In this document: piece after piece, positions 45,200 to 48,551 of the stretch
How positions within the stretch are numbered: position 1 is the stretch's first letter
Layout of the letters: each line of letters begins with the position of its first letter
The notes under the pieces: model-generated
Database searches by the model: none
What the model saw: the letters and a program-made list of their open reading frames with translations, nothing else
What the model was told of the DNA's origin: nothing
Translations under genes and position numbers: made by a program
Assembly (NCBI RefSeq): GCF_001687335.1
Contig: NZ_MAGO01000003.1
Location: 62,001-126,000 of the forward strand
Source of the DNA: Dissulfuribacter thermophilus
GTDB taxonomy: Bacteria > Desulfobacterota > Dissulfuribacteria > Dissulfuribacterales > Dissulfuribacteraceae
Reading direction: 5' to 3'
Length of the DNA stretch: 64,000 nt

Positions 45200-45694
45200 T
45201 TAGTCCTCCATCTTCTCACCACAGTTCATACAGAACTTCGCGGTGATGGGGTTTGAAACACCACAGTGGGTGCACTCAGCTGTTCTTTTTACATTTTTCT
45301 TAGCTAGTTCACTCTCATGTTCCTTGCCCAGTACCTTTATCTCATAGTCCTTTATTGCCTCTTTCAAGGCCTTGGCTCCTAAGTTAGAGCAGTGCATCTT
45401 TTGCTTTGGAAGCCCATCAAGAGCCTCTGCAACTGCCTTATTTGTGATAGTCTTGGCCTCCTCAAGGGTTTTACCCTTGACCATCTCGCTGACCATACTT
45501 GAAACCGCAATGGCAGCCACACAACCAAAGGTTTTATATTTTACATCCTCAATTCTTCCGTCCTTGACCTTTATATAAAAGGTCATCATATCTCCACAGG
45601 CAGGATTTCCCACCTCTCCGACACCATCAGCTTGAGGAATTTCACCGGTATTTCTCGGATTAGAAAAATGCTCCATTACCTTCTGACTATACAT
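45200..45694 (-). CDS. iscU: IscU-type Fe-S scaffold fused to a C-terminal zinc ribbon
   Basis: 164 residues. The IscU/NifU-N domain (1-125) has the three cluster cysteines Cys33 (GNPACGD), Cys58 (KTFGCVA) and Cys102 (MHCSNL), and the release residue Asp35. After a charged linker the last 30 residues carry CTHCG...FCMNCG (Cys141, 144, 155, 158), a rubredoxin-like zinc ribbon not present in classical IscU. It lies between the Rrf2 regulator and the ferredoxin gene, with a normal ribosome site (AAAGGAGGA). Confidence 0.93.
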
Positions 45695-46131: not shown

Positions 46132-47301
46132 TTATGCAGCCTCCTTCCACACTGGACTCATTTCCCTCAATCTCCTGGCCACCTGAGGCAAGACGTTTAG
46201 CACATGATCTACGTCCTCTGGGCTATTGGATTCATCCAAAGTAAACACCACTGAGCCCTGGGCCACCACATCTGAAAGTCCTATTGCGACAAGCACTGGC
46301 GATGTCTTTAAGGCCTTCGATGCACAGGCAGAGCCCGTGTTAGCGTATACATTGTTTGCACTGAGCATAAATATCAGGGCCTCTCCTTCTATACCTTCGA
46401 TACAAAAGCTCGCATGGTTTGGTAAGCGTTTTTCAGGATGCCCTGTAAAGTGGACCTTGGGTATAGAAGAGGTGACACCCTGAATCAGCCTGTCTCTAAG
46501 CGATGTGAGCTTTTTGGCCCTTTCTTCCAGATTCTTCACCCTCAACTCAGCTGCCTTTCCCAGTCCAATTATGCCAGGGACGTTTTCTGTGCCTGCCCTT
46601 CTGCCCCTTTCTTGAATACCGCCGTGTATGAGGGGCATGAGCCTTGTATTTTTCTTGAAGTATAGAGCACCCGTTCCCTTTGGGGCTCCAAGACTTATTC
46701 CAGAAAGGCTCAAAAGGTCTATTCCCAGCTCTTTTACGTCCACTGGTATGTTTCCCACAGTAGCAACTGCATCTGTATGGAAAAATGATCCGTTTTCATG
46801 AGCGATCTCACAAAGTTCTTTTATAGGTTCAATTGTACCTATCTCATTGTTAGCGTGCATTATAGAGACTAGTACAGTATCCGGACTAATAGCCTTTTTT
46901 AGCCTTTCAGGATCAACCAGTCCGTATCTATCCACAGGGAGAAAAGTTACTTCATAGCCGAGCCGCTCAAAAAATCGTGCAGAATTTAGCACTGAGTGGT
47001 GTTCTATGGCAGATACTATTATCCTTTTCCCCTTTTTTGGATTTGCAAAGGCTATTCCCTTTATTGCCAGATTATTGGCCTCTGCCCCTGAAGAGGTAAA
47101 TACTATCTCATCAGGCTCTGCATTTATAAGGTCAGCTACCTTTTCTCTGGCATCCTCGATGGCATCCTTGACCCTGCTGCCAAGGTCATATACCACGGAA
47201 GGATTCCAAAATACCTCATCCAAATAGGGCATCATTGCCTCTTTGACCTCTGGAGAAAGAGAGGTAGCCGATGCATGATCCATATATACAATGCGTTCCA
47301 T
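46132..47301 (-). CDS. IscS/NifS-like protein lacking the PLP-binding lysine
   Basis: 389 residues with the full cysteine desulfurase fold. The stretch that normally reads SGHK(x)2xPKG reads SGISLGAPKG, so Lys is Ser203 and the preceding His is Ile202. The substrate-carboxylate Arg region (FSLGR in relatives) reads FTLDES; DAVQ reads DAVA180. The active Cys326 loop (GSACAS) and His101 are kept. The frame is clean and the text highly ordered, so this is not a decaying gene. I infer a non-PLP partner of IscU. Archaeoglobus fulgidus IscS, from a sulfate reducer, is reported also to lack this lysine. It lies two bases after tusA. Confidence 0.9.
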   Translation of the reverse strand: MERIVYMDHASATSLSPEVKEAMMPYLDEVFWNPSVVYDLGSRVKDAIEDAREKVADLINAEPDEIVFTSSGAEANNLAIKGIAFANPKKGKRIIVSAIEHHSVLNSARFFERLGYEVTFLPVDRYGLVDPERLKKAISPDTVLVSIMHANNEIGTIEPIKELCEIAHENGSFFHTDAVATVGNIPVDVKELGIDLLSLSGISLGAPKGTGALYFKKNTRLMPLIHGGIQERGRRAGTENVPGIIGLGKAAELRVKNLEERAKKLTSLRDRLIQGVTSSIPKVHFTGHPEKRLPNHASFCIEGIEGEALIFMLSANNVYANTGSACASKALKTSPVLVAIGLSDVVAQGSVVFTLDESNSPEDVDHVLNVLPQVARRLREMSPVWKEAA

Positions 47302-47777: not shown

Positions 47778-48551
47778 TCAGATCTTGGAAGGACCAAACT
47801 GCCTTACAAGGTCATGGTACTTGAGGAATTTACCTCCAAAAATATCTAGAGCACTTCCAACAGTAAAATCAATACGTCCCCTTCCTATCTCTTCGATCTC
47901 CTGAATATCTTTAATAGAACGAATGCCTCCAGCATAGGTTGTGGGGATTGGTGAGTATTTTCCTAAGATTTCCACAAGTTCCCTTTCTATGCCAGCACAT
48001 TTGCCCTCAACGTCTACTCCATGCACTAGGAACTCGAGACAAAATCCTCCAAGATATTCAAGGGTCTTGGCATCCACCTTAAGTTCTGTAAAACGTTGCC
48101 ACCTATCCGTTACCACATAGTAATTACCATCTTCACGCTTTCTACAGCTTAAATCCAGTACGAGTCTCTCTTTTCCAATGCCGGAAATTAACTTCTTTAA
48201 ATTCTCTTCATGGAATTTCCCATTGGAGAAACAAAAGGAGGTTACGATCACAGCCTCTGCTCCGGCATCAAGCCAGTAACTTGCATTTCCATCTGTTATT
48301 CCACCACCTATTTGCATACCACCGGGCCATGCACTAAGAGCCTCTAAAGCACTGGCCTCATTTCCAGGGCCAAGCATAATCACATGCCCACCTCTTAGCC
48401 CATCTCTTTTGAATAGCTCCGCGTAGTAGGAAGGTGGCTTTTCAGAAACAAAATTCTCTCTTGGGCCTATGCCTTCACTATCCCTTAGAGTTGATCCAAT
48501 GATCTGTTTTACCTTTCCCTCATGAAGGTCAATACAGGGTCTAAAGCGCAT
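47778..48551 (-). CDS. hisA: Eukaryotic-type HisA (phosphoribosyl-formimino-AICAR isomerase)
   Basis: Isomerises ProFAR to PRFAR in histidine synthesis. 257 residues that resemble yeast His6 rather than the usual bacterial HisA: FRPCIDLHEGKVKQIIG, NFVSEKPPSYYAELFKRD, GGHVIMLGPGNE, QIGGGITDGNASYWLDAGAEAVIVTS, VLDLSCRK, YAGGIRSIKDI and FTVGSALDIFGG. It starts one base after the cusA stop, at the end of the copper-efflux operon, away from any his cluster. Bacterial members of this subgroup are known; horizontal spread is likely. Confidence 0.88.
   Translation of the reverse strand: MRFRPCIDLHEGKVKQIIGSTLRDSEGIGPRENFVSEKPPSYYAELFKRDGLRGGHVIMLGPGNEASALEALSAWPGGMQIGGGITDGNASYWLDAGAEAVIVTSFCFSNGKFHEENLKKLISGIGKERLVLDLSCRKREDGNYYVVTDRWQRFTELKVDAKTLEYLGGFCLEFLVHGVDVEGKCAGIERELVEILGKYSPIPTTYAGGIRSIKDIQEIEEIGRGRIDFTVGSALDIFGGKFLKYHDLVRQFGPSKI

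Follow-up and report, generated by a model that had tools for sequence, protein, structure and literature searches.

The closest described counterpart of the protein reported here is the IscS of A. fulgidus (PDB 4EB5, 4EB7 and 4HVK, with a D199K mutant in 4R5F). It is reported to show no desulfurase activity for want of lysine and to provide one Cys as a ligand of the IscU cluster (PMC7585200). The entry 4EB5 is the crystallised A. fulgidus IscS-IscU complex, and its IscS reads SSNDIYGPKG, with an Asp at the Lys position. Methanosarcina acetivorans IscS1 reportedly lacks the essential Lys as well, and a role similar to that of the A. fulgidus protein has been suggested for it (PMC7585200); these two proteins are the published cases found by our literature search. 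In E. coli IscS, K206A, Q183E and other pocket variants are inactive, some PLP being still held by K206A (PMC9978102). The C-terminal end of E. coli IscS contacts IscU; in the IscS-TusA complex some 4 A separate the loop Cys from the Cys of TusA, and TusA and IscU compete for IscS (PMC2854127). When E. coli iscS is deleted, H2S can feed IscU anaerobically, a rescue that needs IscU (PMC13015791).

Here we describe an IscS-like protein of Dissulfuribacter thermophilus, encoded within a window of 64,000 nucleotides, which is the whole stretch of DNA that was analysed. It is probably a non-desulfurase relative of IscS that serves as the dedicated partner of the adjoining IscU, and it is best read as belonging to a putative bacterial branch, linked to TusA, of the type represented by A. 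fulgidus IscS.

Active-site residues of the IscS-like protein

The gene lies on the minus strand at window positions 46132-47301 and forms an uninterrupted frame of 389 codons from ATG to stop, in agreement with the first-pass annotation of this DNA. Its product was aligned with E. coli IscS; the A. fulgidus sequence used here was matched full length to PDB 4EB5. Ser203 (codon AGT, 46693-46695) stands in place of Lys206, the Schiff-base lysine for PLP, Ile202 (ATA) in place of His205, and Ala180 (GCT, 46762-46764) in place of the PLP-bonding Gln183. Val352 (GTG, 46246-46248) replaces the first arginine of IRFSLGR, the substrate-carboxylate arginine (Arg354). All four losses had been proposed in the first-pass annotation and can be read directly from the codons. 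The mobile-loop catalytic cysteine is kept as Cys326 (TGT, 46324-46326; E. coli Cys328) and is found in all Arg-less relatives aligned. His101 (CAC; E. coli His104), Asp177 (GAT; E. coli Asp180) and the C-terminal motif Ser382-Pro383 (46153-46158), which is present in all IscU-linked complete IscS of our sample, are kept as well.

The protein matches Pfam Aminotran_5 (PF00266) with an E value of 1.8e-77, as expected for the aminotransferase class V fold. Its top NCBIfam model, the desulfurase equivalog NifS, has a curated cut-off of 530.75 bits, which neither the protein (501.7 bits) nor eight relatives reached. The AlphaFold model has a mean pLDDT of 89.6 and is weak at loop 226-238 and at the Cys loop. 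Its top PDB match was 4HVK, A. fulgidus IscS (TM 0.90/0.95), followed by human NFS1 complexes and then E. coli IscS. Retention of the desulfurase fold together with Cys326, also claimed at first pass, is borne out by the codon, the Pfam match and the model. Compared with the 81%-identical copy in the nearest relative (G002), the gene has a pN of 0.13 and a pS of 0.81 (saturated), indicating purifying selection. A sequencing error at residue 203 can be excluded because four independent relatives (69-81% identical) also lack the Lys.

With 47% identity, A. fulgidus IscS resembles the D. thermophilus protein in having lost Lys, Gln and Arg (to Asp, Ala and Leu, respectively) and in its retained loop Cys; it is also the top structural match. 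The Asp in 4EB5 agrees with the first-pass statement that this archaeal protein lacks the lysine, and absence of desulfurase activity is reported for it (PMC7585200). An iscU lies in the same operon as the D. thermophilus gene, and the Ser-Pro is conserved; like its A. fulgidus counterpart, the protein may bind IscU and ligate the cluster through its Cys. Unlike its archaeal counterpart, the present protein is bacterial, has Ser at the Lys position within an SGxxLGAPKG motif, and is encoded in an operon with TusA, Rrf2 and ferredoxin genes. By its published description, M. acetivorans IscS1 is similar in that the essential Lys is absent. E. coli IscS and NifS-type desulfurases (TIGR03402, TIGR02006) share with the D. 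thermophilus protein the fold, the mobile-loop Cys, the IscU-binding end and the pocket Asp and His, but the latter lacks the equivalents of Lys206, His205, Gln183 and Arg354 and scores below the NifS cut-off.

Operon and genomic setting

The five-gene operon recognised at first pass, including a gene for a 62-aa ferredoxin-like protein, was recovered in the order tusA (47560-47303), iscS-like gene (47301-46132), rrf2 (46128-45724), iscU (45694-45200) and fdx (45179-44991), all on the minus strand. The TusA-like protein (85 aa; PF01206, E 7e-18) keeps Cys20 and has CPxH instead of CPxP, reading CPLH in the window protein and CPxH in the consensus of its clade (CPmHLL...LTDYDGALeDIP.WC, with the signature LTDYDGALEDIPxWC). 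The Rrf2/IscR-like regulator (PF02082) carries a three-Cys motif, which was found in 91 of 97 linked Rrf2 proteins. IscU (PF01592, PF13240) conserves its cluster-binding positions Cys33, Asp35, Cys58, His101 and Cys102 and ends in a C-terminal zinc ribbon with a CxxC...CxxC tail (45209-45274). Such a four-Cys tail occurs in part of the relatives, namely 42 of 129 IscU proteins beside Lys-less IscS and 12 of 33 beside Lys-bearing IscS. The full operon order is kept in G002 and in G004, and two other genomes (G017 and G031) have the same order minus the adjacent fdx. Relative to G002, pN was 0.05 for tusA and 0.08 for iscU. Elsewhere in the window, a HisA encoded at 47778-48551 (minus strand) matched hisA_euk (TIGR02129) with 361.9 against a cut-off of 229.3, far above the bacterial model. 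Only one other strong His_biosynth match exists in the genome, in a frame of 564 aa that is possibly a fusion of HisH and HisF.

The D. thermophilus genome is 2.52 Mb long and 99.97% complete, and the IscU of the operon is its single NifU_N protein. The search for a second, complete desulfurase, suggested at first pass, returned one: a protein with Lys, Gln and Arg (L002, G000:C1:176056) is encoded elsewhere, with no iscU nearby, and is 42% identical to the IscS-like protein. There is also one SufB/D-core protein, with a SufC-like ABC ATPase adjoining (L049, G000:C4:58000-70000) and no second SufB/D protein in the genome; alongside the ISC-like operon, this pair appears to form a minimal SUF-like system. 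A dsrA gene is present (587.9 bits against a curated cut-off of 392.85) and marks the genetics of a sulfite/sulfate reducer. Each of the 25 other genomes with a Lys-less IscS that were checked encodes at least one Lys-bearing class V desulfurase-like protein, in many cases a stand-alone type whose Cys lies within G[AS]ACH. Even if the IscS-like protein has lost its activity, the cell could thus still draw sulfur from cysteine for other uses.

Distribution and ancestry of the Lys-less proteins

The five closest orthologues, used as queries against 84,980 species genomes, returned 475 relatives. The best 80 of these all lacked the Lys and were mostly labelled Deltaproteobacteria/Desulfobacterales or Nitrospirae. 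Surveys of 296 Desulfobacterota and 118 Nitrospirota genomes added further lineages. The Desulfobacterota proteins carry the motif SG[IVPA][SPA]LGAPKG, and those of Nitrospirota read AHQFYGPKG, where Lys is replaced by Gln and His is kept. About 50 of the 118 Nitrospirota genomes had a match above a score gap near 540 bits, and the sequenced matches above it were nearly all Lys-less, the exceptions being three mixed forms; these figures describe sampled genomes and best-scoring matches and are not estimates of prevalence. Viral contigs yielded two canonical-looking isc loci, with 40% identity, and were otherwise uninformative. Our search of the open-licence literature found no description of the bacterial Lys-less subfamily or of its tusA linkage, which does not in itself prove novelty.

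Among 286 distinct aligned relatives, Lys, Gln and Arg were all absent in 169 and all present in 114. Lys without Gln and Arg occurred in three, all from Nitrospirota (L327, L329 and L335), and Arg without Lys in none of the 286. A perfect three-residue rule, which held in the first 217 sequences, was abandoned on account of these three proteins. They have iscU and tusA nearby and are candidate intermediates or reversions. Since they keep the Lys alone, loss of Lys and loss of Arg and Gln are separable steps, and the loss was either stepwise or partly reversed. All Arg-less proteins conserve Cys326, His101 and Asp177. The residue that replaces Lys varies among Lys-less proteins (Q, A, S, P, N, V, T, M, E, I, D or G), and Thr76 is Ala in 112 of 167. 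In a Lys-less subgroup of eight proteins (L194, L196, L198, L204, L213, L218, L222 and L283), the Cys loop is enlarged (e.g. SGSACSSNLRGHDEED) and the substrate Arg is replaced by Thr or Ser.

Neighbouring genes were counted within 2.5 kb on the same strand. An iscU was found beside 157 of 167 Lys-less loci versus 46 of 113 Lys-bearing ones. A tusA accompanied 122 of the 167 Lys-less loci, all three Arg-less loci with Lys, and none of the 113 Lys-bearing loci, which encode complete desulfurases. The C-terminal Ser-Pro was present in 165 of 167 Lys-less proteins, in all 46 Lys-bearing proteins whose gene adjoins an iscU and in 19 of the 67 other Lys-bearing ones; because related sequences are not independent, these counts are descriptions and not significance tests.

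Trees were built with the active-site columns removed and with 4EB5 as the sole archaeal sequence, and A. fulgidus IscS fell with or beside the Arg-less clade. In a 67-sequence tree, one branch (bootstrap/SH-aLRT 78/90) set apart all Arg-less proteins including A. fulgidus, which were nested among Lys-bearing IscS, and a single change was sufficient in 78% of the bootstrap trees. An earlier tree also joined all Arg-less proteins including A. fulgidus (SH-aLRT 91). A larger, quick tree joined the bacterial Arg-less set with a support of 99 and did not fix the placement of A. fulgidus. The branch containing the window's protein is sister to that of Nitrospirota (99/96). The simplest reading is a single ancient loss of Arg and Gln, and the Lys-bearing, Arg-less members inside the clade indicate that Lys was lost more than once or regained. 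That A. fulgidus shares this same single loss is favoured, though not firmly supported (78/90), and a firmer claim was set aside because its position differs between trees.

Sulfur supply to IscU and alternative readings

The first-pass annotation had proposed a working, non-PLP partner of IscU. Loss of the desulfurase function and a continuing partnership with IscU are well supported by the coordinated residue loss, purifying selection, Cys326, the Ser-Pro motif and the iscU adjoining in nearly all relatives. We infer that desulfurase activity is absent; synteny and a short C-terminal motif point to binding of IscU. The fold, the mobile loop with Cys326 and the end that binds IscU are retained, but the protein should be able neither to form an internal aldimine nor to hold the carboxylate of cysteine, and release of sulfur from cysteine is therefore not expected. 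It would hold IscU, with Cys326 most likely acting as a temporary cluster ligand or as a sulfur-relay thiol, and the two would draw their sulfur not from cysteine but from cellular sulfide or from persulfide borne by the TusA of the operon. The protein may be free of PLP, but Asp177 and His101, which are PLP contacts in active enzymes, are invariant even in Lys-less proteins. This suggests that the old pocket is preserved by a PLP-like ligand or for some structural reason, and it leaves room for a noncovalent ligand. Free sulfide would be a plausible sulfur source for IscU. The first-pass annotation listed tusA and assigned it no function. The tusA linkage favours some part for TusA, and this adjacency, specific to Arg-less loci in our sample, offers a possible second sulfur route besides sulfide.

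In a specific form of this explanation, sulfur from sulfur respiration or from the other desulfurase would be carried as persulfide on TusA and passed through Cys326 to IscU, a flow opposite to that from IscS to TusA in E. coli. Such a relay is a possibility to be taken seriously, although we stop short of calling it probable. It would account for the distribution of tusA among the loci and is in line with the strong constraint on the linked TusA, including its conserved Cys20, and with the proximity of the two cysteines and the competition between TusA and IscU in E. coli (PMC2854127). However, the adjacency may stem from one ancestral arrangement rather than from many independent events, and R27, needed by E. 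coli TusA for IscS binding, is not conserved. Moreover, about a quarter of the Lys-less loci have no tusA nearby, and no tie of A. fulgidus IscS to TusA was seen in the evidence gathered. The wider proposition, that a widespread bacterial ISC branch gave up cysteine and uses a PLP-free IscS homologue to relay sulfane sulfur from a dedicated TusA via Cys326 to IscU, is a tentative one, and we hold it to be rather unlikely. If true, the relay would link the assembly of Fe-S clusters in sulfate reducers and in Nitrospirota directly with sulfur respiration.

Alternatively, in a form close to that put forward at first pass, sulfide and iron could assemble directly on IscU, with the IscS-like protein giving Cys326 as a ligand or steadying IscU and with TusA working elsewhere. 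The A. fulgidus precedent (PMC7585200) and the dsrA of this genome agree with such assembly. So does the E. coli rescue by H2S, which is likewise dependent on IscU and independent of a desulfurase (PMC13015791), although sulfide was added in that case and there was no IscS-like partner. As it leaves the tusA linkage of Arg-less loci unexplained, we regard sulfide on its own as a somewhat doubtful account.

It is improbable that the IscS-like protein is a regulatory or mixed-dimer subunit, pairing with a complete desulfurase to modulate or direct it, or sensing a PLP-like ligand. The invariant pocket residues Asp177 and His101 and the presence of a complete family member wherever checked would suit this role, but the complete desulfurase of D. 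thermophilus shares only 42% identity, is encoded elsewhere without iscU, and the A. fulgidus protein was crystallised in complex with IscU (4EB5). A slow desulfurase using another base and noncovalent PLP seems very unlikely: some PLP is held by E. coli IscS K206A (PMC9978102) and Asp177 and His101 are retained, but Gln and Arg are gone too, Thr76 is mostly Ala, and the varied residues at the Lys position offer no common substitute. A decaying pseudogene or an assembly error, which nothing beyond the absent catalytic residues would suggest, was discarded as practically inconceivable given the open frame, the purifying selection and the same losses in more than 160 distinct sequences.

A. fulgidus IscS has so far been treated as a lone odd case. 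The same losses mark a large and old bacterial subfamily, spread across Desulfobacterota and about 50 of the 118 sampled Nitrospirota genomes, with iscU nearly always adjoining. Homology would name these Lys-less proteins cysteine desulfurases, and if our preferred reading of a non-desulfurase partner of IscU is right, models of sulfur metabolism for such anaerobes would consequently be wrong. The family provides natural variants, including the three Lys-bearing, Arg-less forms, that bear on how desulfurase activity is lost and on whether sulfide or TusA persulfide supplies cluster sulfur. This branch may build its clusters with sulfur that is not derived from cysteine.
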